From an uncultured Blautia sp. (lineage in GTDB: Bacteria > Bacillota > Clostridia > Lachnospirales > Lachnospiraceae): DNA of 24,829 bases. Position numbers and translations under genes: made by a program. The notes beneath the pieces are model-generated. The model had not been told where the DNA came from. It ran no database searches and saw only the letters and a list, made by a program, of their open reading frames with translations. Of the stretch, positions 306-23,682 are shown one piece after another. Numbering within the stretch: the first letter of the stretch is position 1; the number at the start of each line of letters is the position of its first letter. The stretch is taken from contig NZ_CALFLA010000107.1 of assembly GCF_937880195.1 (NCBI RefSeq), positions 1 through 24,829 of the forward strand, in the 5' to 3' direction.

Positions 306-1361
306 GTGGAGGATGCTTTGACAGATCGTAAAAAGAAGATTTTAAAAGCGATTATCAAAACCTACATGGAAACAGGAGAGCCAGTTGGCTCCAGGACAAT
401 TTCCAAGTATACAGATCTGAATGTCAGCTCAGCGACAATCCGAAATGAAATGTCTGACCTGACAGATCTGGGCTACATTGTACAGCCCCATACATCAGCA
501 GGAAGAATCCCTTCTGATAAGGGCTACCGGTTATATGTAGACGAGTTGATGAAGGAAAAGGAAGACGAGATTGAAGAAATCCGTAATTTGATGATTGAGA
601 AGACTGACAAGATGGAAAAGGTCCTTAAGAAGGTGGCCAAGGTTCTTGCTTCCAATACAAATTACGCAACAATGATCTCTGTTCCCCAGTACAGCGGAAG
701 CAAGCTGAAATTTATTCAGCTTTCCAGAGTCAATGAACTGCAGCTTGTAGCGGTAGTGGTCTGTGAGGGAAACGTCATTCGGAACCAGATCATAGATCTT
801 GACGAGGAGATGGATGATGAGACGATCCTGAAGCTGAATCTTCTATTGAATACAAATCTGAATGGACTTCCTATTCAGGATATCAACCTGGGAATGATCG
901 CAAGATTGAAAGAACAGGCTGGAATCCACAGCGGACTGGTTGCGAGAGTGTTGGACGCTGTTGCAGCAACTATTCAGGTGGACGAGGAAGATTTGGAAAT
1001 CTATACGTCAGGTGCAACGAACTTCTTTAAATATCCAGAGCTTTCAGATAAACAGAAAGCCACAGAATTGATTTCTGCATTTGAAGAAAAACAGCAGCTT
1101 GCGGATCTTGTAAAAGAACATATGGCAGATGAGGATAATACAGGAGTTCAGGTATATATCGGCGACGAGCTTCCTATTCCAACTATGAAGGACTGCAGCG
1201 TTGTTACAGCAACTTATGAGCTGGGGCAGGGAATGCATGGAACCATTGGTATTGTAGGACCGAAACGGATGGATTATGAAAACGTGGTCAACAATCTGAA
1301 AACCCTGAAGGTTGAACTGGATGAGGTGTTCAGAAAGAATAAAAACGAAGACAGGCAGTAG
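306..1361 (+). CDS. hrcA: Heat-inducible transcription repressor HrcA
   Basis: This is the 351-residue repressor of class I heat-shock genes, and it binds the CIRCE site directly upstream. The N-terminal winged helix covers about residues 8-75, with GEPVGSRTIS and SSATIRNEM, followed by the family signature HTSAGRIPSDKGYR. The remainder is the dimerisation and regulatory domain. Length is normal for the family. The GTG start at 306 follows AAAGGAG (291-297) with 8 bases of spacing. hrcA is first in the operon, with grpE 28 bp downstream. Identification is firm. Confidence 0.97.
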   Translation: MEDALTDRKKKILKAIIKTYMETGEPVGSRTISKYTDLNVSSATIRNEMSDLTDLGYIVQPHTSAGRIPSDKGYRLYVDELMKEKEDEIEEIRNLMIEKTDKMEKVLKKVAKVLASNTNYATMISVPQYSGSKLKFIQLSRVNELQLVAVVVCEGNVIRNQIIDLDEEMDDETILKLNLLLNTNLNGLPIQDINLGMIARLKEQAGIHSGLVARVLDAVAATIQVDEEDLEIYTSGATNFFKYPELSDKQKATELISAFEEKQQLADLVKEHMADEDNTGVQVYIGDELPIPTMKDCSVVTATYELGQGMHGTIGIVGPKRMDYENVVNNLKTLKVELDEVFRKNKNEDRQ

Positions 1362-1389
1362 GTAAAAATAGAAAGGTGGTAGACAAAGC

Positions 1390-2019
1390 GTGGCAGAAGA
1401 AAATAAAAACACTTCTGAGGTACAGGAGGAAACAGAGCAGAATACTGTGGAAAACGAAACTGTAACAGAGGTGCAGGAGGAATCGCCGGAAGCCACAGCC
1501 GGAGAAGAAAGCACAGCAGAGACTTCTGAGGAAGCATCAGAAGAGAAGCCGGAAGGAAAAGCAAAAACTTCTTTCTTCAAAAAGAAAAAGGACAAAAAGG
1601 ATCAGCAGATCGAAGAACTGACAGATCGTCTGAAACGTAGCATGGCAGAGTTTGATAACTTCCGTAAGCGTACAGAAAAAGAAAAGTCCAGTATGTATAT
1701 TATCGGGGCAAAAGAAATCATTGAAAATATGCTTCCGGTGGTAGATAATTTTGAAAGAGGTCTTGCGCAGGCTGTTGAAGGCGATGCTTTTGCCGAAGGC
1801 ATGAAGATGATCTACAAACAGCTTATGACTACCCTGGAGGGGCTTGGAGTAGAAGCAATCGAAGCTGTAGGCAAAGAGTTTGATCCAGACTTCCACAATG
1901 CGGTAATGCATGTGGAGGATGAAGAAGCCGGAGAAAACATGGTTGTGGAAGAACTTCAAAAAGGATACACTTATAAAGGATTTGTAGTACGCCACAGCAT
2001 GGTGAAAGTTGCGAATTAG
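1390..2019 (+). CDS. grpE: Nucleotide exchange factor GrpE
   Basis: GrpE releases ADP from DnaK and resets its substrate cycle. The protein has 209 residues. Residues 1-55 are a very acidic Glu/Thr/Ser-rich stretch and are followed by a basic patch (KKKKDKKD). A long helix (QQIEELTDRLKRSMAEFDNF) and the C-terminal beta domain with EFDPDFHNAVMHVED and GFVVRHSMVKV complete it. The low-complexity acidic N-terminus is typical of Gram-positive GrpE. The GTG start at 1390 follows AAAGGTGG (1372-1379). A large structured element separates it from dnaK. Confidence 0.97.
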   Translation: MAEENKNTSEVQEETEQNTVENETVTEVQEESPEATAGEESTAETSEEASEEKPEGKAKTSFFKKKKDKKDQQIEELTDRLKRSMAEFDNFRKRTEKEKSSMYIIGAKEIIENMLPVVDNFERGLAQAVEGDAFAEGMKMIYKQLMTTLEGLGVEAIEAVGKEFDPDFHNAVMHVEDEEAGENMVVEELQKGYTYKGFVVRHSMVKVAN

Positions 2020-2129
2020 TCATGCCGCAAGAAAAGGAAGCGTCTGCAAAGCAGACATTTACTTTTCGGGCATGACACCGACAGAATCGAAAGTGCGAAG
2101 CACATCAAATGCGAAGCATTTGGATTCTG
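2020..2129 (+). other. Structured intergenic element between grpE and dnaK (stem-loop plus three-way junction)
   Basis: Two composite structures can be drawn from perfect repeats. The first is a long hairpin: TCATGCC (2020-2026) with GGCATGA (2069-2075), GAAAAG (2031-2036) with CTTTTC (2062-2067), and GTCTGC-AAA-GCAGAC at the tip (2042-2056). The second has an outer stem CAGAATC (2082-2088) with GATTCTG (2123-2129). It encloses two adjacent GAA-triloop hairpins, GTGC-GAA-GCAC (2093-2103) and CAAATGC-GAA-GCATTTG (2106-2122), forming a three-way junction. No T-run follows, so it is not a standard terminator. It could be an mRNA processing or stability element, or a dispersed repeat. The function is not known to me. 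Confidence 0.75.
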
Positions 2130-2152
2130 GAGGGATTGCCTTAACTTAATGC

Positions 2153-2161
2153 TGTTATACT
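2153..2161 (+). promoter_or_regulatory. Possible internal promoter for dnaK (extended -10)
   Basis: TGTTATACT at 2153-2161 fits an extended -10 (TGnTATACT). The nearest -35-like hexamer, TTGCCT at 2136-2141, is only 14 bases away, so any activity would depend on the extended -10. It lies 54 bp before the dnaK start and just after the structured element. Confidence 0.3.
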
Positions 2162-2214
2162 ACAGTTTTAAACAGATAGTTATGTAGGTTTATAATATAG
2201 GAGGATAAATTATC

Positions 2215-4092
2215 ATGGGAAAAATTATCGGTATTGACCTTGGAACAACAAACAGCTGCGTAGCAGTTATGGAAGGTGGACAGCCCACCGTTATCGCAAA
2301 CACAGAGGGAGCAAGAACAACACCGTCTGTAGTTGCTTTTACAAAGACAGGAGAGCGTCTGGTAGGAGAGCCTGCAAAACGTCAGGCAGTTACAAACGCT
2401 GAAAAAACAATTTCTTCCATTAAGAGAGAAATGGGTTCTGATTATCGTGTAACAATCGACGACAAAAAATATTCTCCACAGGAAATTTCTGCAATGATTC
2501 TTCAGAAACTGAAAAAAGACGCAGAAGGATATCTTGGAGAAACTGTTACAGAGGCAGTTATTACAGTTCCGGCTTACTTTAACGACGCGCAGCGTCAGGC
2601 AACAAAGGACGCTGGTAAAATTGCAGGACTTGATGTAAAACGTATCATCAACGAGCCTACAGCAGCAGCTCTGGCATATGGCCTTGACAATGAAAAAGAG
2701 CAGAAGATCATGGTATACGACCTTGGCGGCGGTACATTCGACGTTTCCATTATCGAAATCGGCGACGGTGTTATCGAGGTTCTTTCCACAGCAGGAAATA
2801 ACCGTCTTGGCGGCGATGACTTTGACCAGAAGATCACAGACTACATGCTGGCAGAATTCAAGAAAACAGAAGGCGTAGATCTTTCTAATGATAAGATGGC
2901 TCTTCAGAGACTGAAAGAGGCAGCAGAAAAAGCAAAGAAAGAGCTTTCTTCCGCAACAACAACAAACATTAACCTTCCGTTCATTACTGCTACAGCGGAA
3001 GGACCGAAGCACTTTGATATGAACCTTACAAGAGCTAAATTCGACGAGCTGACACATGATCTTGTAGAGAAAACAGCAGAGCCGGTACGCCGCGCACTTT
3101 CTGACGCAGGAATTACAGCATCTGAGCTGGGCCAGGTACTTCTTGTAGGCGGTTCCACACGTATTCCGGCTGTACAGGATAAAGTAAAACAGATCACAGG
3201 CAGAGAGCCAAGTAAATCCCTGAACCCGGACGAGTGCGTTGCACTTGGCGCTTCCGTACAGGGCGGTAAGCTTGCAGGAGACGCAGGCGCAGGAGATATC
3301 CTTCTTCTGGACGTTACTCCGCTTTCTCTTTCCATTGAGACAATGGGAGGAATCGCAACCCGTCTGATCGAGAGAAATACAACAATTCCTACAAAGAAGA
3401 GCCAGATCTTCTCCACAGCAGCAGATAACCAGACCGCTGTAGACATCAACGTTGTACAGGGTGAGCGTCAGTTTGCAAGAGATAATAAATCCCTTGGCCA
3501 GTTCCGTCTGGACGGAATCCCGCCAGCACGTCGTGGAGTTCCGCAGATCGAGGTAACATTTGATATTGATGCCAACGGTATTGTAAACGTATCTGCAAAG
3601 GATCTGGGAACAGGCAAAGAGCAGCATATCACTATCACTGCAGGCTCCAACATGTCTGATTCTGAAATCGACAAGGCTGTTAAGGAAGCTGCTGAGTTTG
3701 AGGCTCAGGACAAGAAGCGTAAAGAGGCGATTGATACAAGAAATAACGCAGACTCTATGGTATTCCAGGTTGAGAACGCTCTTAAAGAAGCAGGCGACAA
3801 ACTGGATGTAAACGATAAGGCTGCAGTTGAGGCAGATCTGAACGCACTGAAAGATCTCCTTTCCCAGACAGCAAACGCAGAGCTGACAGACGCACAGGTT
3901 GCAGACATTAAGGCAGCTCAGGAAAAAATGATGGAAAGCGCTCAGAAGCTGTTCCAGAAGATGTATGAGCAGACACAGCAGGGCGGTCAGGCTGGACCGG
4001 ACATGGGCAACATGGGCGGCGGAGCTTCCCAGGGCGGAAATGAAACCGGATATGGCGACGACGTGGTAGACGCAGACTACAAAGAAGTCTGA
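2215..4092 (+). CDS. dnaK: Molecular chaperone DnaK (Hsp70)
   Basis: This is the ATP-dependent cytosolic Hsp70. It has 625 residues, normal for Firmicutes. The phosphate-1 motif [15 protein letters not shown] lies at residues 4-18. The phosphate-2 motif [11 protein letters not shown] and adenosine motif [10 protein letters not shown] follow. The interdomain linker is [12 protein letters not shown], then come the beta substrate-binding domain ([17 protein letters not shown]), the helical lid and a Gly/Gln-rich tail ending [10 protein letters not shown]. The N-terminal lobe runs straight from [10 protein letters not shown] into [10 protein letters not shown], the shorter Gram-positive form. AGGAGG at 2199-2204 precedes ATG 2215 by 10 bases. 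dnaJ follows after 24 bp. Confidence 0.99.
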
Positions 4093-4116
4093 TAGAAAGC
4101 ATAGGAAAGAGAAGCA

Positions 4117-5298
4117 ATGGCTGATAAAAGAGATTACTATGAAGTCCTTGGCGTTGACAGAAACGCCAGTGACGCAGATCTGAAAAAAGCATATCGAAAA
4201 TTAGCCAAGAAATATCACCCGGATGTAAATCCGGGTGATAAAGACGCAGAGGCAAAATTTAAAGAAGCCACAGAGGCGTACGGCATTTTAAGCGACCCGG
4301 ATAAAAGAAAGCAGTATGACCAGTTTGGTCACGCGGCCTTTGAAAACGGCGGAGGCGGAGCCGGCGGCTTCGGCGGTTTTGACTTTAACGGCGCAGATAT
4401 GGGAGACATTTTCGGAGATATTTTCGGAGATCTGTTTGGCGGCGGAGGCAGAAGTCGTGCCAATAATGGCCCGATGCGCGGCGCAAACCTTCGAGCAAGA
4501 GTAAACATTACTTTTGAAGAGGCTGTATTTGGCTGTGAAAAGGAACTGGAAATTGTTCTGAAGGATGAATGCTCCACCTGTCACGGAACCGGAGCAAAGC
4601 CGGGAACACAGCCTGTTACCTGTCCGAAATGTAACGGAGAGGGACAGATTGTTTATACGCAGCAGTCTATGTTCGGTATGGTCCGTAATGTACAGACATG
4701 TCCAGAATGCGGCGGCACAGGTAAGGTGATCAAAGAGAAATGTACCTCCTGCCGTGGTACAGGATATACTTCCTCCAGAAAGAAGATCCAGGTATCTATT
4801 CCTGCTGGTATAGACAATGGTCAGAGCATCCGTATTCGTGAAAAAGGAGAACCGGGAACAAACGGCGGCCCAAGAGGAGATCTTCTGGTAGAGGTAAACA
4901 TTGCCCGCCATCCGATTTTCCAGAGACAGGATATGAACATTTTTTCATCTGCTCCGATCACATACGCACAGGCTGCTCTGGGCGGAGACGTACACATCAG
5001 TACAGTAGACGGAGACGTTGTCTACGAGGTGAAACCGGGAACCCAGACAGATACCCGTATCCGTCTGAAGGGCAAAGGCGTTCCGTCTTTGAGAAACAAA
5101 AACGTTCGCGGCGATCATTACGTAACTCTGGTAGTACAGGTTCCCACAAATCTTAACGAGGAGGCAAAAGAAGCTCTTCGTAAATTTAACGAGGCATGCG
5201 GCGGAAAACAGACAGAGGCAAAAGGCGGCACAGGTGAAAAAACCGAAAAGAAGAAAAAAAGTTTCATGGATAAGCTGAAAGAAACTTTTGAAGACTGA
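4117..5298 (+). CDS. dnaJ: Co-chaperone DnaJ (Hsp40)
   Basis: DnaJ delivers substrates to DnaK and stimulates its ATPase. It has 393 residues. The J domain (about 5-70) has the HPD motif at 34-36. A Gly/Phe-rich region with [16 protein letters not shown] and [14 protein letters not shown] follows. The zinc centre has four CxxCxGxG repeats ([32 protein letters not shown]). The C-terminal substrate domain ends in a Lys-rich tail before [12 protein letters not shown]. This is a full type I DnaJ. A strong terminator 36 bp downstream ends the heat-shock operon. Confidence 0.99.
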
Positions 5299-5333
5299 TC
5301 TGCTAAATGCAGAGAAATAAAGAAACTTTTAAG

Positions 5334-5363
5334 GAAAAGAGGGAAATCCTCTTTTCTTTTTTT
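5334..5363 (+). terminator. Terminator of the hrcA-grpE-dnaK-dnaJ operon
   Basis: Perfect 9-bp stem GAAAAGAGG (5334-5342) and CCTCTTTTC (5348-5356) with a 5-base loop. Seven T bases follow at 5357-5363. Confidence 0.92.
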
Positions 5364-5394
5364 ATGCTTTCGTGTATGATATAGTGCGAGGTAT

Positions 5395-5400
5395 TATAAT
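5395..5400 (+). promoter_or_regulatory. Probable -10 box of the prmA promoter
   Basis: A perfect TATAAT lies at 5395-5400, after the dnaJ terminator and 49 bp before the prmA start. No convincing -35 hexamer is visible at 16-18 bases. Position supports a promoter, but strength and exact start are uncertain. Confidence 0.45.
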
Positions 5401-5448
5401 CATAAAAGAACACGGAAGCGTTCTTAAATATCAACAGGAGAATTGGCC

Positions 5449-6435
5449 ATGAAGTGGAAAAAATTTAAAATAAAAACAAAAACCCAGGCAGAAGATATTA
5501 TTATCAGCACTTTATACGATATTGGTCTGGAGGGCGCGCAGATTGAGGATAATGTTCCTCTGACAGCTCTGGAAAAAGAGCAGATGTTTGTGGATATCCT
5601 TCCGCAGATGCAGGAGGATGACGGAACTGCATATCTGAGCTTCTTTGTGGAGGAGACAGAAGATGGAAGGCTTCTTAAAAACGGAGAGGAAACAGACGTA
5701 GAAACGATTCTTAAAGAGGTGAGGGAGGAACTGGACGGGTTACGCGGGTTCCTTGATATTGGAGAAGGTTCTATCGAGGTTGATGAAACAGAGGATATTG
5801 ACTGGATCAATAACTGGAAGCAGTATTTTAAACAGTTTTATGTGGATGATATCCTGATCGTTCCTTCCTGGGAAGAGGTAAAAGAAGAAGACAAGGACAA
5901 AATGATCCTTCATATTGATCCGGGTACAGCTTTTGGAACCGGAATGCATGAAACTACCCAGCTTGTGATCCGCCAGCTCAAAAAATATGTAAAAGAGGGC
6001 TGCCAGCTTCTTGACGTAGGAACAGGAAGCGGAATCCTTGGAATTACCGCCCTGAAGCTGGGGGCAGGCCATGTGGTTGGAACAGACCTTGATCCCTGCG
6101 CAGTTCCTGCAGTTCAGGAAAATAAAGAGGCAAACCAGATTCCTGAGGAAGATTTTGACATGATGATCGGAAATATCATTGACGACAAAGATGTGCAGGA
6201 TCAGGTAGGCTACGAAAAATACGATATTGTAGCAGCGAATATTCTTGCAGACGTTCTTGTTCCTCTGACGCCGGTAATAGTTTCTCATATGAAAAAGGGC
6301 GCTTATTACATTACTTCAGGTATTCTTGACATAAAAGAATCTGTTGTAACAGAAGCAGTGGAAAAGGCCGGACTTACCCTTGTGGAGGTAACAAAGCAGG
6401 GCGAGTGGGTATCTGTTACTGCCAGAAAGGACTGA
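5449..6435 (+). CDS. prmA: Ribosomal protein L11 methyltransferase PrmA
   Basis: PrmA uses S-adenosylmethionine to trimethylate amino groups of ribosomal protein L11. It has 328 residues from ATG 5449. I prefer this start because AGGAG (5436-5440) is 8 bases away, while an upstream in-frame TTG at 5443 would leave only 2. An N-terminal L11-recognition domain (about 1-120) precedes the Rossmann methyltransferase. Features are GTAFGTGMHETT, the SAM loop LLDVGTGSGILG (about 187-198) and NILADVLVPL (264-273). rsmE begins 3 bp after the stop. B. subtilis keeps prmA in the dnaK operon; here a terminator intervenes. Confidence 0.95.
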   Translation: MKWKKFKIKTKTQAEDIIISTLYDIGLEGAQIEDNVPLTALEKEQMFVDILPQMQEDDGTAYLSFFVEETEDGRLLKNGEETDVETILKEVREELDGLRGFLDIGEGSIEVDETEDIDWINNWKQYFKQFYVDDILIVPSWEEVKEEDKDKMILHIDPGTAFGTGMHETTQLVIRQLKKYVKEGCQLLDVGTGSGILGITALKLGAGHVVGTDLDPCAVPAVQENKEANQIPEEDFDMMIGNIIDDKDVQDQVGYEKYDIVAANILADVLVPLTPVIVSHMKKGAYYITSGILDIKESVVTEAVEKAGLTLVEVTKQGEWVSVTARKD

Positions 6436-17261: not shown

Positions 17262-17888
17262 CTAGGCGTCGTCAAAAAGAGAACGGAGTTTCAAAAGGGC
17301 GTTTTTCTCAATGCGTGAAACGTAGGACCGACTGATATGAAGCTGCCCGGCAACTGTTTTCTGGGTTTCCTGGGGAATGCCGAATAATCCGTATCGCAGG
17401 CAGATCACTTGATATTCTTTGGGTGTGAGAGCCGTCTTCAGTCCGGCCAGAAGTTTTTTGATCTCCTGTTTTGTGGCAAATTCTTCCACAATGTCTACCG
17501 GAGGACTTTCCATAATATCAAGAAGATTGATTTCATTTCCTTCTCTGTCAGTGCCAATGGGTTCGTACAGGGAAACTTCACGGGATCGTTTCTTTTTGGA
17601 GCGGAGCATCATCAAAAGCTCATTTTCGATACAGCGGGCGGCATAGGTGGAAAGACGGGCGGATTTTTTTGTGTCAAAGGTGGAAACTGCTTTGATCAGT
17701 CCGATGGTTCCAATGGAAATCAGATCATCCAGGTCTTCGTCAGAGCCCTGGTATTTTTTTACCACATGGGCTACCAGCCGGAGATTGCGCTCTATCAGAA
17801 TATTTTTTGCTTCCAAATCTCCCTCCCGGCAGCGTTGAAGATAATATTTTTCCTCGGCTGATGTCAAAGGTTTTAAAAATGTCTTCAA
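17262..17888 (-). CDS. sigK: Sporulation sigma factor SigK (no pro-sequence)
   Basis: 208 residues of the sigma-70 family, most like late mother-cell SigK. Region 2 has IERNLRLVAHVVKKY, DLDDLISIGTIGLIKA and LSTYAARCIENELLM. Region 3/4 has SLYEPIGTDREGNEINLLD and the helix-turn-helix AGQLHISRSYVSRIEKNAL. Residue 5 onward (LKPLTSAEEKYYL) aligns with mature B. subtilis SigK, so the roughly 20-residue inhibitory pro-sequence is missing. This is certain because an in-frame TGA (17898-17900) lies four codons before the TTG start at 17888. The ribosome site GAGGTGA (17893-17899) overlaps that stop. The gene is intact, with no skin-type interruption. SigE-like family members are the main alternative. 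Confidence 0.88.
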   Translation of the reverse strand: MKTFLKPLTSAEEKYYLQRCREGDLEAKNILIERNLRLVAHVVKKYQGSDEDLDDLISIGTIGLIKAVSTFDTKKSARLSTYAARCIENELLMMLRSKKKRSREVSLYEPIGTDREGNEINLLDIMESPPVDIVEEFATKQEIKKLLAGLKTALTPKEYQVICLRYGLFGIPQETQKTVAGQLHISRSYVSRIEKNALLKLRSLFDDA

Positions 17889-17915
17889 GTCTTCACCTCA
17901 AAGGGGATTTCTTTA

Positions 17916-17943
17916 TAGCTTATGTCCGGGACAGGCTTTTCGT
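17916..17943 (-). promoter_or_regulatory. Candidate SigK-type promoter upstream of sigK
   Basis: On the minus strand AC (complement of 17942-17943), 17 bases, then CATAAGCTA (complement of 17916-17924) fits the published SigK consensus AC-N16/17-CATAnnnTA. A start about 20 bases before the TTG codon would be sensible. The motif is short and could arise by chance. Confidence 0.45.
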
Positions 17944-17991
17944 GCTTTTCCAATAAAAAGAAACCAAAATGTCCGTCTGTTCTTTGCAGGT

Positions 17992-18025
17992 CAGGCGCAG
18001 GAGAGTGTATACTTTCTTGCGCCTG
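17992..18025. promoter_or_regulatory. Inverted repeat overlapping the promoter of the DUF5717-like operon (candidate operator)
   Basis: Perfect 8-bp arms CAGGCGCA (17992-17999) and TGCGCCTG (18018-18025) are separated by 18 bases. The right arm contains most of the -35 box of the plus-strand promoter, so a bound dimer would block it. It also lies upstream of the divergent sigK gene. Confidence 0.55.
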
Positions 18026-18045
18026 TTTCCATAGTGGTGTATAAT
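18017..18045 (+). promoter_or_regulatory. Promoter of the DUF5717/Hsp70-like/TPR operon
   Basis: TTGCGC at 18017-18022, 17 bases, then a perfect TATAAT at 18040-18045. The -10 lies 51 bp before the TTG start. Confidence 0.7.
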
Positions 18046-18096
18046 AGGGTAATAAAATTGTGAAGCCATAAGATAAAGGACAAAAGGTGAACCATA

Positions 18097-21000
18097 TTGA
18101 AGAAAAAAATAGAACAATTACTTAGCGGAAAATTCAGATATGAGGAGCCGCCTCTTCTCTTTTCCCAGGAGAGACTGGAAATTTCTCTGGAAGCCGGAAA
18201 AACAGTCCGGGGAGAGCTTTATCTGGGAACAGAGGATAACGAGAAGATCCAGGGCTACGTGACTTCATCCAACCGGAGACTGGTGACGGGAAACAGCCGT
18301 TTTTCAGGGACAACCGTATGTATTCCCTATGGGGCGGACGGAGTGGGTATGAAGCCTGGAGATATCTGTCAGGGCTGGCTCTGTGTGACAACAAGCGTTG
18401 GGGAATACAAGATCCCCTTTGAGATCCGGGCGCAGAAGGACAGGTTTCAGACAGCGTCAGGAGAATTAAAAAATATGGAAACCTTCCGGGAAATTGCAAA
18501 AAAAGATTTCAGGGAGGCGTATCGCCTTTTTACAGATAAATGTTTTTCCTCAGTTATGGAAGGGGCGGATAAGAAACAGAAAGCTCTTTATTTAGGGCTT
18601 TCCAGACAGCCGGTTACTTACCAGCATGTGGAGGAATTTTTTATAGGACTGAAGGAGAAGGAACCTGTAACGATTTCTTTAAAGACGCTTTGTCATGAAG
18701 CATATGAGATAGGAGAATCTGTGCAGGAATCTTTTGACATCCAAAGAAGCGGATGGGGACATTTACGCCTGGATATTTCTGCCTCAGGAGATTTTATTGA
18801 GTTGGAACGCCATGTGATTACTCAGGAAGAATTTATTGGAAGTACCTGCAGAGTAGAATATGTGATCCGTGCAGATAAACTGAAGGAAGGCAGACAGGTT
18901 GGCTGTATTGTAGTAAGAAGTCCTTACCAGAAGCTTGTTTTTGAAGTGATAGCTTCTAAGGGAACTCCGGTAAGAGTGGACGTTCGCTCAGAGGAAAAAC
19001 GCCGCCGCCTTTCTCTTGTAAAAGACTACATGGAATACAGAGAAGGCAAAATGGACTTTAATACCTGGGCGGGAAGCTCTCATTTTCATTTGAACCAGCT
19101 TCGCACCTCAGGCTGCGATTACCCGGAATATCAGATGTTTGAGGCATACCTATGTCATCTGGAGGGCAGAGATGAGGAAGCCATAGATATTCTCAAAAAA
19201 TATGGAGACAAAGAATTTTCCAGAGAAGAACTGGAACTTGCAGGCGTTTATCTTTATCTTTGTACGCTGACAGGACTTTATAAGGACAAAGGCCAGGCTG
19301 TGTGGAGGATCCAGAATTTCCATATGCAGAAATCAGACAGCTTTCAGCTTTTGTGGCTGTTGCTTCAGATGGACGGCGGCTATAAGAAGCTGCCGTCAGA
19401 AGGTATTTTTATGATGGAAGAGCAGTTTGAACGAGGCTGCCGCAGTCCTCTTCTCTATATGGAAGCCTGGAAGTGGATCAGCAGAGATATCAGCCTTTTT
19501 CACAGACTCAGTCCCTTCTGGATACAGGTGTTCTGTTATGCCGGAAGAAGAGGGCTTCTTACTGAGGAGCTTGTTATGCGCCTTGCCTATTTATCCGGCT
19601 ATGAAAAAAACTTCCATGGAAGTCTTTACAGGGCGCTGGTGGCTGGCTATGAGAAATTTCCTTCCAGCGACGTGCTGGAGGCAGTATGTAAATATATCAT
19701 GAAGGGGAATCCCAGGAAACAGGAATATTTCCGATGGTTTTCTCTTGCAGTGCAGCAGGGGCTTCGTCTTACAAGATTATATGAATATTATGTGGAAACC
19801 ATGGATATTACATATCAAAAAGAGCTTCCCAAGCCGCTTTTGATGTATTTTAATTATAATGACAACACTTTGGGAGATAACCGCAAGGCTTTTGTTTATG
19901 CAAGTGTGATCGCCCATAAAGAAAAAGAGCCTCTGATCTATGAGAGCTACAAAGACGCCATGGAACGGTTTGCAAAAAGAAAGATCCAAGAAGGGCATAT
20001 GGATGAAAATTATGCTGCTCTTTACCAGGAGTTTCTTTTTGAGCCAAAGAACCATAAAGAAGCGGAGACGGCTGCCCGTCAACTTTTTACCTGCCGTCTT
20101 TACTGCGACGACAAAAAGATCCGTCAGGTGATTGTCCGCCACAGCCAGTTTGAACAGGAAGAGGTATACCCCTGCGTACAGGGCGTGGCATATCCAAGGA
20201 TTTATACAGAGGATGCTGTGATACTGTTTCAGGATGATAAGCAGAGACGTTATGTTTCCACAGTTCACTATAATCTCAAAAAGCTGAATGATGAAAGCAG
20301 CGCTCTTACCAATTTTTTGAAACTTCAGTCAGAGGAACCGGGGCTTCTCCTTCATTATTGTGAACAAGAAGAAATGAACCGGGAAAACCTGGAATATTTT
20401 CAACGTCTGGCAGAATGCCCGGCATGTACAGAGGAATATAGAAACAGCATTTATAAAAGACTCCTTGACTATTATGAAGAGCATGTTCAGGGAGAAGATC
20501 TGGATCAGTATCTTCAGACAATGGACTACAGGAAATATGCGGCTGTAGACTGTCCGGGACTTTTAAGGGTGCTGATCTCCAGACGTATGTTCCGGCAGGC
20601 TATGGCTTTGGTAGAGGAATATGGATATGAGGGGCTTGAACTTGGCAGTCTTCTTAAACTCACAAGCCGTATGATATTGAAAGCGGATATGGCAGAGGAT
20701 GAGGAACTGCTGGCTCTTGCCTCTGAGGTATACAGACAGGGGAAATATGACGAGGTGATTCTTCACTATCTGATGCTGTACCGTTTTGGTCCTGTGGAGG
20801 AGCTTCTTTCCTTGTGGAAAAGCGCCCGCGGTTTTGAGATGGATACTTATGAATTGGAAGAAAGGATTCTTTCTCTTCTCATGTTTACTTCAGATTACCG
20901 CAAAGAAGGAGAGGCGGTTCTGGAGGCCTATGTAAAACAATCTGGAAGAGAGCGTATGATCGGAGCATATCTTACCCAGGTGGCTTATGGTATTTTTGTA

Positions 21001-21642
21001 AAGGAATATCCCATGACAGGGTTTATCCGGGAGCGTCTGGAATATGCGTATCGGAATCACTGGCCTGTGGACAAGGTGTGCCGTCTTGCTCTTTTGCAGG
21101 AGCTTTCCAAAGAAAAAGAACCGGATGAAGAGCATAAAAAAATGATGGAGACTCTTGTGGAGGAGTGCGCAAAAGAAAATATGGCCTTTGGATTTTTTCG
21201 AAGGCTGGATCCGAAGATTTTAAGCCCCTGGCAGATGGACGACAAGACTTTTGTAGAGTGTCACGCCCATCCAGATGCGCGGGTAACTCTTTATTATGCG
21301 CTGGATGCAGGTCTTGGGGGAGTACGGGAGTATAAAAGCGAGCCTTTAAGAGAGGTTTATCAGGGTATCTTTACAAAAAACTTTACCCTGTTTTACGGAG
21401 AAACTCTTCATTATTATTTCAGGATCGACAGAAACGGACAGTCAAAGGAATCGGCGGAACGCACTGTGACTATGAAAAAGGTGGAGGGAGCGCCGGGAAG
21501 CAAGTACCAGCTTCTGAACCAGATCCTTTCGGCAAGAAGGCTGGAAAAATCCAGTGAGGTAACGGAGGGACTGATAAGATATCTCAGACAGGAACAATAT
21601 GTAAAGGAAATGTTTACCATAGAAGAGGAACAGGAAAAATGA
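18097..21642 (+). CDS. Very large DUF5717-like protein (beta domains plus helical-repeat solenoid)
   Basis: 1181 residues with no signal peptide or membrane segment, so probably cytosolic. The TTG start follows AAGGTGA (18084-18090) by 6 bases. I recognise it as like DUF5717 proteins of Lachnospiraceae, whose function I do not know. Visible parts are: beta-rich domain (about 1-113, RLEISLEAGKTVRGELYLG), short helical linker, a second beta-sandwich-like domain (about 188-289, WGHLRLDISASGDFIELE), and a long run of helical pairs (about 300-1040) rich in TPR-like Tyr/Leu/Ala patterns. A third beta domain (about 1053-1134, ARVTLYYALD to YYFRIDRNGQ) and a helical tail complete it. The layout suggests a scaffold. 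The stop overlaps the next start (ATGA), indicating coupled synthesis with the Hsp70-like protein. Confidence 0.85.
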   Translation: MKKKIEQLLSGKFRYEEPPLLFSQERLEISLEAGKTVRGELYLGTEDNEKIQGYVTSSNRRLVTGNSRFSGTTVCIPYGADGVGMKPGDICQGWLCVTTSVGEYKIPFEIRAQKDRFQTASGELKNMETFREIAKKDFREAYRLFTDKCFSSVMEGADKKQKALYLGLSRQPVTYQHVEEFFIGLKEKEPVTISLKTLCHEAYEIGESVQESFDIQRSGWGHLRLDISASGDFIELERHVITQEEFIGSTCRVEYVIRADKLKEGRQVGCIVVRSPYQKLVFEVIASKGTPVRVDVRSEEKRRRLSLVKDYMEYREGKMDFNTWAGSSHFHLNQLRTSGCDYPEYQMFEAYLCHLEGRDEEAIDILKKYGDKEFSREELELAGVYLYLCTLTGLYKDKGQAVWRIQNFHMQKSDSFQLLWLLLQMDGGYKKLPSEGIFMMEEQFERGCRSPLLYMEAWKWISRDISLFHRLSPFWIQVFCYAGRRGLLTEELVMRLAYLSGYEKNFHGSLYRALVAGYEKFPSSDVLEAVCKYIMKGNPRKQEYFRWFSLAVQQGLRLTRLYEYYVETMDITYQKELPKPLLMYFNYNDNTLGDNRKAFVYASVIAHKEKEPLIYESYKDAMERFAKRKIQEGHMDENYAALYQEFLFEPKNHKEAETAARQLFTCRLYCDDKKIRQVIVRHSQFEQEEVYPCVQGVAYPRIYTEDAVILFQDDKQRRYVSTVHYNLKKLNDESSALTNFLKLQSEEPGLLLHYCEQEEMNRENLEYFQRLAECPACTEEYRNSIYKRLLDYYEEHVQGEDLDQYLQTMDYRKYAAVDCPGLLRVLISRRMFRQAMALVEEYGYEGLELGSLLKLTSRMILKADMAEDEELLALASEVYRQGKYDEVILHYLMLYRFGPVEELLSLWKSARGFEMDTYELEERILSLLMFTSDYRKEGEAVLEAYVKQSGRERMIGAYLTQVAYGIFVKEYPMTGFIRERLEYAYRNHWPVDKVCRLALLQELSKEKEPDEEHKKMMETLVEECAKENMAFGFFRRLDPKILSPWQMDDKTFVECHAHPDARVTLYYALDAGLGGVREYKSEPLREVYQGIFTKNFTLFYGETLHYYFRIDRNGQSKESAERTVTMKKVEGAPGSKYQLLNQILSARRLEKSSEVTEGLIRYLRQEQYVKEMFTIEEEQEK

Positions 21643-22886
21643 ACGAAACACGGGATTTGATTATTGGTATTGATTTTGGAAAAAAATATTCGCAGATCTG
21701 CTATTATGACCGAAAGGCTGAAGAAGCCCGTTCTCTTCCTGTAAAAGTGGGAAGCAGTCTTTTTGAAACGCCCACCTGTCTGTGCAGACGTTCCGGGCAG
21801 GGAGATTACTGTATTGGTCTGGAGGCAGAATATTTTGCAAGGGAAAAAGGAGGATTTCTTCTGGATGACCTTTATGGGATATCTGCTTCAACAGAAAAAA
21901 TCCAGGTTGCAGAAGAGGAAAAAGAACCCTGGGAGCTTCTGGGATATTTTCTTGAAGGAATGTTGAAATTTCTGGGAGTTGCCCAGATAGAAAAAAATAT
22001 AAAATGCCTGACTGTTGCCATGGAAACCATGGATTCTGTACAGGTGGCTAATCTACAAAAGGCCTGCGCGTTTCTGGGGCTTTCGGAAGATAGCTTCAGT
22101 CTTCTGGATTATGAAGAAAGTTTTTATTATTATGTGCTGACCCAAAAGGTAGAAACTTGGAACCGCAGCGTGGGATGGTACAGTTTTGACAATAATAAGG
22201 TTTCTTTCAGGAAGCTGGTAATGAGCACAGGAACAAAGCCTGTGCTTGTGCGCCTTGAAAACCCTGTGGAGACAGTCCTTCGGGAGCCTTCTGAAGAAAG
22301 AGACGAAGATTTTTATAAATTTGTAAAAGATACTCTGGGAACAGATCTTTATTCCAGCATCCAGATGAACGGAGAAGGATTTGACCAGGAATGGGCTGTA
22401 AAATCCGTTAAGCTTCTCTGCTATCAGAAGCGCAAGGTCTTTTATGGGAATAACCTTTTTGCAGCCGGAGCCTGCGGCGCCGGAGCTGAAAAGCTGATCA
22501 ACCGGAGACTGAAGGGATACCGTTATCTTGGAAGCTCCCTGGTTGTAAAAGACGTGGGCATGAATATGCGGGTTATGGGAGCTCCGGCTTATTATCCCCT
22601 TCTGGAGGCGGGAAACAACTGGTATGAAAGCAAGGCGTCCTGCGAACTGATCCTGGATCATACGGAGGAACTTGTATTTGTAGTAGGCACAATGGGAGAA
22701 ACAGAAAAAAAGAGGATGTCCATGAACCTCCCCGATCTTCCGAAGCGGCCTAATAAGACCACAAGGCTTTCTGTAAGTCTTCAGTATATTTCACGGAAGG
22801 AATGCCGGATCACAGTAAAGGATCTGGGGTTTGGAGAAATGTTCCCGTCTACGGGAAAGGTTTGGGAGGAAATCGTACAGTGGTAA
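21639..22886 (+). CDS. Divergent Hsp70/actin-fold protein (DUF5716-like)
   Basis: 415 residues. The N-terminus DLIIGIDFGKKYSQICYY (6-23) matches the Hsp70 phosphate-1 motif (DnaK here has [15 protein letters not shown]), but TT is replaced by KK. The expected phosphate-2 motif DLGGGT is not found; the corresponding place reads VGWYSFDNNKVSF (178-190). An adenosine-like loop LFAAGACGAGA is at 273-283. The last 80 residues resemble a beta substrate-binding domain: RITVKDLGFGE (390-400) parallels [11 protein letters not shown] of DnaK. There is no helical lid. It may bind nucleotide weakly or not hydrolyse it. It overlaps the scaffold gene by 4 bases. I associate this type with DUF5716, from memory of naming only. 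Confidence 0.82.
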   Translation: MNETRDLIIGIDFGKKYSQICYYDRKAEEARSLPVKVGSSLFETPTCLCRRSGQGDYCIGLEAEYFAREKGGFLLDDLYGISASTEKIQVAEEEKEPWELLGYFLEGMLKFLGVAQIEKNIKCLTVAMETMDSVQVANLQKACAFLGLSEDSFSLLDYEESFYYYVLTQKVETWNRSVGWYSFDNNKVSFRKLVMSTGTKPVLVRLENPVETVLREPSEERDEDFYKFVKDTLGTDLYSSIQMNGEGFDQEWAVKSVKLLCYQKRKVFYGNNLFAAGACGAGAEKLINRRLKGYRYLGSSLVVKDVGMNMRVMGAPAYYPLLEAGNNWYESKASCELILDHTEELVFVVGTMGETEKKRMSMNLPDLPKRPNKTTRLSVSLQYISRKECRITVKDLGFGEMFPSTGKVWEEIVQW

Positions 22887-22899
22887 AGGAGGGAAAGAT

Positions 22900-23682
22900 T
22901 TGAGCGGATATATTTTATGCCAGACCAAAAAAGCAGACAGACCGTATTTTATAGAGAATATCAGCACAAACATTTATACCCTGGAAGAACTGTGCTATTA
23001 TCTTTTTCATAATCTTTATCTGGTGGATGAAACGATCATCAACGAGGGGCTCTGCAGTTGGATCCAGGAGGAACTGAAACTTCCAAAGCTGGCCTATAAG
23101 CTGAGAATGGGACTTGGCAAGTTTTGCAGCGCCGAGGATGTGCTTTATCCGATTTTTAAAGAAATCAATTACCTTACTTATGAGGAACTTAAGGCGCTTA
23201 ACGGAAAACTCCAAAAGCTGGACAGAGAATCTCTTCCGGTTCGAGAAAAGCAAAAAGGAGATACTTTAATGGCAAACGGCATGTATGTCCATGCGATTCA
23301 GGTCTACCAAAAACTGCTGGAAACAGAAGATTTGGAGGAATACCGGGAAGGGCTTACGGAAAGTATCTGGCATAATCTGGGATGCGCCTACAGCTATCTT
23401 TTCCTGATGGAAAAAGCCCTGGAATGTTTTCAGAAGGCCTATGAAGCAGGAAAAAGCCAGACGGCCCTTAGAACCCTTCTTCTGGCTGCGCACAGTGTGA
23501 GAAGCAGAGAGGAATACGAAGCCTTTGCCAGGGATCTGGGTGCGGGAGAAGAGATTCTGGAAGAAATAGAAAGCATACTTAAAAATTTTGACATGAAGAA
23601 AAAGCCTTTTGTGGAACAGGGACAGGCCGACAATCTTCTGGAGAATCTTACCAGAGAATATCACAGAGGAACAGGATCGTGA
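22900..23682 (+). CDS. Small TPR protein, third gene of the Hsp70-like operon
   Basis: 260 residues from TTG 22900. GGAGG (22888-22892) gives 7-base spacing, while an in-frame ATG at 22831 would lie inside the previous gene and has no ribosome site. The N-terminal part (1-110) begins SGYILCQTKKADRPYFIENI and has NIYTLEELCYYLFHNLYLVDE, a helical domain I cannot assign. Two tetratricopeptide-like units follow: GDTLMANGMYVHAIQVYQKLLE (about 116-137) and HNLGCAYSYLFLMEKALECF (about 157-176). A charged helical tail ends the protein. No signal or membrane segment is present. It starts 13 bp after the Hsp70-like gene, so the three genes form an operon. TPR proteins often act as adaptors for Hsp70, which makes a partner role plausible but unproven. 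Confidence 0.8.
   Translation: MSGYILCQTKKADRPYFIENISTNIYTLEELCYYLFHNLYLVDETIINEGLCSWIQEELKLPKLAYKLRMGLGKFCSAEDVLYPIFKEINYLTYEELKALNGKLQKLDRESLPVREKQKGDTLMANGMYVHAIQVYQKLLETEDLEEYREGLTESIWHNLGCAYSYLFLMEKALECFQKAYEAGKSQTALRTLLLAAHSVRSREEYEAFARDLGAGEEILEEIESILKNFDMKKKPFVEQGQADNLLENLTREYHRGTGS

Follow-up and report, generated by a model that had tools for sequence, protein, structure and literature searches.

The three genes at nt 18097–23682 of the DNA analysed here (24,829 nt from an uncultured Blautia sp., referred to below as the window) are probably the remains of a dedicated multi-Hsp70 machine, which would now serve as a constitutive housekeeping complex of an ATPase-dead adaptor and its scaffold. 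They encode a DUF5717 protein, a DUF5716 protein and a TPR protein, which may form one complex. Within a family of gut bacteria, the DUF5717 and DUF5716 genes are strongly conserved and unexplained. No mention of DUF5717 or of PF18984, PF18983 or PF18980 was found in the open-access literature (subscription papers may differ), the open-access text available for DUF5716 held only an unrelated motif listing, and 'DnaK paralog' together with Lachnospiraceae returned nothing from the open-access literature. The features of the operon are as follows.

18040..18045, + strand: TATAAT read by eye, candidate −10 of the operon promoter with a weak −35
18097..21642, + strand: DUF5717 scaffold gene, 1181 aa, TTG start (Pfam, AlphaFold2, fold matches)
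18151..18954, + strand: DUF5717 residues 19–286, tandem Ig (PapD-like) unit; a gene of its own (~390 aa) in most distant loci read
18982..21639, + strand: DUF5717 residues 296–1181, solenoid and C-terminal Ig-like domain; a gene of its own (~900 aa) in most distant loci read (hhalign E 1.3e-81)
21639..22886, + strand: DUF5716 gene, 415 aa, ATG start, lidless degenerate Hsp70 homologue (Pfam, fold, profile, residue counts)
22900..23682, + strand: TPR protein gene, 260 aa, TTG start (ORF and Pfam)

The DUF5717 and DUF5716 genes overlap by the four bases ATGA (nt 21639–21642), and the 13 bases between the DUF5716 and TPR genes (nt 22887–22899) hold a ribosome site, AAAGGAGG. This is the layout given in a preliminary description of the region, and all three ORFs are present as it had them. 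For the TPR protein, the listed ORF (283 aa) begins at an earlier TTG, nt 22831, and the 260-aa version at nt 22900. A single promoter common to the three genes, also part of that description, is plausible and unproven: the TATAAT has a poor −35, and a consensus promoter scan of nt 17889–18096 listed no site on the + strand. Pfam matches place the first protein in DUF5717_N and DUF5717 (8e-276 and 7e-99; 917.7 and 331.3 bits against a gathering score of 25) and the second in DUF5716_C (2e-99; 332.5 bits against 34.7), while the expectation of TPR repeats in the third was borne out by a Pfam TPR match (1e-7). An ordinary DnaK system (HrcA, GrpE, DnaK and DnaJ, nt 306–5298) lies in the same window and is separate from the operon, as had been suggested.

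The AlphaFold2 model of DUF5717 (mean pLDDT 87.7, pTM 0.62) has tandem Ig-like domains at residues 27–113 and 192–286, a helical solenoid (296–1045) interrupted by a beta insert (665–729), a C-terminal Ig-like domain (1050–1125) and a helix pair. The architecture earlier proposed for this giant protein, beta domains with a long helical solenoid, is therefore present, but with four beta parts rather than three. The N-terminal tandem has the ASH/MSP/PapD-like Ig superfamily fold. Axonemal, IFT and centrosomal proteins matched by the solenoid and Ig domains were set aside as a functional lead, the likeness being one of fold only.

DUF5716 is derived from Hsp70, as had been claimed for the second gene; profile and fold comparisons both rank DnaK and other Hsp70s as its best matches. 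The predicted model (pLDDT 91.7, pTM 0.86) is Hsp70-like and has the Hsp70/actin-fold nucleotide-binding domain; its alignment to DnaK covers this domain and continues into the substrate-domain beta portion, to residue ~503. The match of residues 363–408 to the SBD-beta of DnaK by profile is weak (3.7 bits only). The modelled chain of 415 aa finishes with beta strands and has no lid. The DLGGGT phosphate loop is replaced (hhalign against the DnaK of the window), and a DxGG(G)T motif occurs in none of the 53 DUF5716 rows aligned. Catalytic residues were counted in rows aligned against the window's DnaK, at positions K70, E171, D194 and T199 (E. coli numbering): DUF5716 retains K70 and E171 in 0/53 rows, T199 in 1/53 and D194 in 23/53, with the first aspartate (D8) kept in 48/53. 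DUF5716 is deduced to be without ATPase activity; nucleotide binding may remain, given how often D8 and, to a lesser extent, D194 are kept.

The operon is nearly universal in the family to which the window belongs. In a family sample of 200 genomes centred on Blautia schinkii (six of the eight close loci with names are Blautia), DUF5717 was found in 196 genomes and DUF5716 in 195, as a single match in 193 of the latter. Both occur in 193 genomes, DUF5717 only in three, DUF5716 only in two and neither in two. In the class sample DUF5717 was found in 11 of 243 genomes (one weakly) and DUF5716 in 10, ten genomes being shared, and neither was matched in 14 control genomes. A profile of the distant solenoid (see below) matched 17 of the 243 class genomes, strongly only in the ten already known; the other seven, which are short (1e-6 to 7e-4), appear to be noise from the repeats. 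Of 53 loci that were read over a longer stretch, 52 have DUF5717, DUF5716 and TPR in the same order and on the same strand, at identities down to 23%. The sole miss is the locus of a weak DUF5717 match in genome G102 (8e-5; L020, L094) that was taken as spurious. In the short loci returned by the searches, DUF5716 followed DUF5717 in 39/40, DUF5717 preceded DUF5716 in 40/40, and TPR came after in 40/40. Conservation of the order down to ~23% identity and in nearly all of the short loci indicates linkage beyond what chance would give. The survey agrees with the earlier proposal of one conserved three-gene module; homologues lying mostly apart were looked for, and the opposite was seen. One of the ordered loci (L089, nt 3818–5944, − strand) carries an in-frame DUF5716-TPR fusion of 709 aa, either real or an assembly error, the end of which matches the TPR profile at 3e-66.

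A larger operon is found in distant genomes of the order, which appear to lie outside the window's family. DUF5717_N was matched in 122 of 246 genomes of the order-level sample, in many as two weaker adjacent matches; in the family sample nearly all DUF5717 matches listed are of full-length strength, a few genomes, such as G370, having at least two weaker ones. In 16 of 20 distant loci read, which were picked mainly for contig size, the scaffold consists of two genes (~390 and 900 aa), and in the remainder (L180, L181, L182, L184) of a single gene of ~1330 aa. An Hsp70 gene follows the scaffold in 19 of the 20 (L182 is cut by a contig end and L193 has insertions). In L188 (G550) no Hsp70 gene comes after the scaffold pair, and the next gene is PAS-GGDEF-like (by eye). 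All 13 loci extended downstream, two near-copies among them, show HspA, a GrpE-like protein, HspB, HspC and HspD in that order. TPR is present in 12 of the 13 (L208 ends before it, and HspD is also cut there). Unrelated inserted genes interrupt the large operon in L193, L195 and L208, with the order kept.

The large operon begins with the PapD-like protein and the solenoid, and ends its Hsp70 series with HspD, an Hsp70 fused to a vWA domain (VWA Pfam match in 12/12). Pfam HSP70 was matched in one example each of HspA, HspB, HspC and HspD; the HspB of L178 is without this match. The GrpE-like protein, which has a Pfam GrpE match in 17 of 18 cases, is a putative exchange factor. HspA, HspC and HspD keep K70, E171, D194 and T199 in 17/17, 18/18 and 13/14 rows, respectively (the 14th HspD row is a gap), and the examples scored fall under the DnaK and HscA cut-offs. 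HspB is the degenerate member: K70 and T199 are kept in 0/18 rows, E171 in 3/18, D194 in 17/18 and the first aspartate in 18/18, and DxGG(G)T in 0/18. The DUF5716_C match is also strongest in HspB (2e-33, 3e-74), but the HspC of L186 is over the cut-off too (1e-12 against 2e-33 for its HspB), so that this model alone does not mark a DUF5716 orthologue. This larger multi-Hsp70 operon is apparently undescribed.

The direction of change between the two operon types is best read as reduction. In a maximum likelihood tree of 68 rows, DUF5716 forms one clade (100/99) with the HspB of L178 as its sister (100/100), and the other 17 HspB are the next group out when DnaK and the intact Hsp70s are taken as the outgroup (the program's own root is a midpoint, for drawing only). 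The program flags the L178 HspB and several other HspB and DUF5716 rows for unusual composition or long branches. The genome concerned (G442; L178/L202), nearest to the family, carries the full operon set, and since a full-operon genome is sister to the DUF5716 clade, the operon of the window would be a reduced machine, a reading that rests on this single sister genome. The simplest reading of the sequences is that HspA, the GrpE-like gene, HspC and HspD were lost from the operon, and the scaffold genes fused, on the branch to the family. Because HspB is also without K70 and T199, degeneration began before the operon types split, and went further in DUF5716. Hsp70 gene counts per genome agree with loss from the operon: seven of ten short-operon genomes have DnaK and otherwise only weak partial Hsp70 matches, three (G077, G288, G391) carry a single additional gene of Hsp70 size (572- to 638-aa frames, one of which contains a stop), and all six distant genomes show DnaK together with the operon's HspA, HspC and HspD. 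In L202, HspD is in two frames and HspD/TPR are split or short, through decay or assembly errors.

A fourth member, CC4, is a family of ~400 aa whose ends look like coiled coils by eye, with weak keratin matches; it has two predicted membrane segments (three in one case) and no convincing Pfam match. It is the next gene after the operon in 21 of the 53 loci, and of 37 checked loci with a CC4 match, 36 have DUF5716 and TPR directly before it. It was found in 92 of the 200 family-sample genomes (90 strongly) and in 8 of 243 class-sample genomes (7 strongly, all among the ten operon carriers); weak matches in G061, G286 and G301 and a second match in G381 were taken as spurious. CC4 also follows TPR in the large operons of L202 and L209, and in both valS lies downstream of it; valS is downstream in 10 of the 53 short-type loci, directly after CC4 in L106 and L123. 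CC4 is missing beside Blautia operons, and a profile search of the Blautia genome G001 gave no match. The view that all components are cytosolic fits DUF5717, DUF5716 and TPR, but nearly half of the family's genomes also carry the membrane-anchored CC4.

As judged from its relatives, the ancestral operon would have comprised genes for two scaffold components (a PapD-like protein with tandem Ig domains and a large solenoid of TPR type), three intact Hsp70s (one with vWA), a GrpE-like exchange factor, a degenerate Hsp70 ancestral to DUF5716, a TPR protein and a coiled-coil protein anchored in the membrane. In the window's lineage, the scaffold pair would have become one gene, and the operon would have lost its GrpE-like gene and its intact Hsp70s; the scaffold, the pseudo-Hsp70 and the TPR protein would have stayed, as would the membrane protein in nearly half of the family. 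The DUF5717 solenoid may hold the other two proteins, of which the pseudo-Hsp70 would act like Ssz1, as an adaptor (nucleotide-binding or nucleotide-free) and not as a foldase. The complex would be constitutive and housekeeping, located near the membrane in genomes that have the fourth protein, and would perhaps hand clients to DnaK. In the eukaryotic ribosome-associated complex, Ssz1 uses the Hsp70 fold as a non-hydrolysing adaptor within a stable complex. Ssz1 structures are among the fold matches of DUF5716, and the likeness is by fold and proposed role; the partner of Ssz1 is a J-protein, whereas the neighbours of DUF5716 are TPR and Ig/solenoid proteins. Compared with the DnaK/DnaJ/GrpE system, DUF5716 has the fold and may have part of SBD-beta, and the larger operon has a GrpE-like protein of its own, but DUF5716 is without most catalytic residues and the lid, and no J-domain match was found in the conserved genes scanned. 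With regard to the earlier idea of a chaperone-type machine, a chaperone origin is supported by the three intact Hsp70s, the GrpE-like protein and the vWA-Hsp70 fusion of the distant operon. An autonomous ATP-driven machine is unlikely, given the missing residues and lid of DUF5716 and the absence of intact partners and the GrpE-like gene from the operon.

For the order as a whole, we tentatively suggest a self-contained Hsp70 complex comprising scaffold, exchange factor, vWA-Hsp70, pseudo-Hsp70, TPR protein and, in some, an anchor, of which the window's family dropped every intact operon Hsp70 and kept the pseudo-Hsp70 and scaffold as a near-universal housekeeping complex. If true, a chaperone has been turned into a structural or adaptor machine. 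The multi-Hsp70 context, the missing catalytic residues of DUF5716 and the departure of its intact sisters from the operon turn 'unknown function' into precise questions, namely nucleotide binding, the complex and a link to DnaK. As a naturally occurring cluster of specialised Hsp70 genes, the larger operon is useful for studying division of labour among paralogous Hsp70s.

Other roles were considered less probable. It is unlikely that the proteins form a membrane-associated cytoskeletal or cell-shape scaffold, in which the actin-fold DUF5716 and the Ig/solenoid DUF5717 would be static and tethered by CC4 where present. An actin/Hsp70 fold without intact catalysis would suit such a role, as would an Ig tandem similar to axonemal and centrosomal ASH/MSP structural domains and a neighbour with two membrane segments (36/37 CC4 loci), but DUF5716 is closest to DnaK/Hsp70s by profile and fold, the relatives have intact Hsp70s and a GrpE-like factor, and the ASH/PapD likeness is of a common fold only. 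An ordinary heat-shock accessory in the HrcA regulon is highly improbable. The descent from Hsp70 and the DnaK operon ~13 kb upstream in the window speak for it, but the single perfect CIRCE of the window (nt 252–278) precedes hrcA-grpE-dnaK-dnaJ, none lies near nt 18097 within 3 mismatches, and the short distance is not general, as in the five genomes with both genes on one contig (G001, G210, G288, G344, G380) dnaK is ~124 kb to 1.25 Mb from DUF5717.

Defence genes are typically patchy in distribution, and the presence of both DUF5717 and DUF5716 in 193 of 200 family genomes argues against a conflict (anti-phage or self-recognition) system built of Hsp70, GrpE, vWA and TPR parts, such as one centred on a GAP1-N2 GTPase or a CoCoNuT. 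There is no PADLOC model for DUF5717, DUF5716, TPR or CC4, and a PADLOC scan of these four with HspA and HspB gave no match; those of the GrpE-like protein to ZorA (0.0014) and of the vWA-Hsp70 to PDC-M61B (6e-7, over the Hsp70 part) were judged generic. The parts list of the larger operon does have a great deal in common with the HSP70/GrpE theme of GAP1-N2 systems, as set out by Kaur et al. 2020 (PMC7159879): an Hsp70 and GrpE neighbourhood, a subset with a second Hsp70 that lacks a domain for peptide binding, and a protein in which FNIII repeats are fused to DnaJ or TPRs, for which those authors inferred a place near the membrane. Here, however, the genes are near-core in one family, with three intact and one degenerate Hsp70 of which the intact ones are gone from the operon in the window's lineage, and the Pfam matches listed for the scanned conserved genes include no GAP1-N2 protein or TRAFAC GTPase. 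CnuD of the CoCoNuTs is likewise a degenerate Hsp70, described (PMC11090510) as an Hsp70-like NBD/SBD with degenerate nucleotide motifs beside helical repeats and coiled coils, expected to bind ATP/ADP with very little hydrolysis. CoCoNuTs are built round McrB/McrC (PMC11090510), and no McrB GTPase or McrC was seen in the Pfam and PADLOC matches listed for the conserved genes scanned, nor any nuclease or effector over cut-off in the Pfam ones. Of the published systems found in the open-access literature, these two stand closest. As neither GTPase/GAP1 nor McrBC parts were found in the conserved genes scanned, membership of either kind of system is not claimed, and a conflict role is considered a rather poor prospect.

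The flanks of the operon are variable; besides CC4, the commonest neighbour families occur in 20, 19 and 18 of the 53 loci. In the window it lies between a SigK-type sigma factor gene (nt 17262–17888, − strand) and a fructose-bisphosphate aldolase gene. The SigK-type protein passes one SigK cut-off, with 286.1 against 252 bits, and falls just short of the other, with 283.4 against 298.65. Among the 53 loci, sigK is directly beside the operon only in the close relatives L001, L002, L004 and L005, and the aldolase gene is a direct neighbour only in L001–L005; L098 has two sigma-factor matches further off. Sporulation as the main role was rejected on the absence of SpoIVA_ATPase from many DUF5717 carriers: 22 of 80 DUF5717-positive genomes, many of them drafts, have no match, and one more is sub-threshold. 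A histidinol-phosphate/threonine-phosphate aminotransferase-like gene (by eye) is often divergent upstream of DUF5717 (most of 18/53 loci, such as L116 and L092), and purB-, purC- and purF-like genes (by eye) often lie downstream of the operon. In L114, L118, L112, L123 and L103, a protein of ~456 aa with an N-terminal cysteine-rich, zinc-ribbon-like stretch is encoded 7 to 11 kb downstream.
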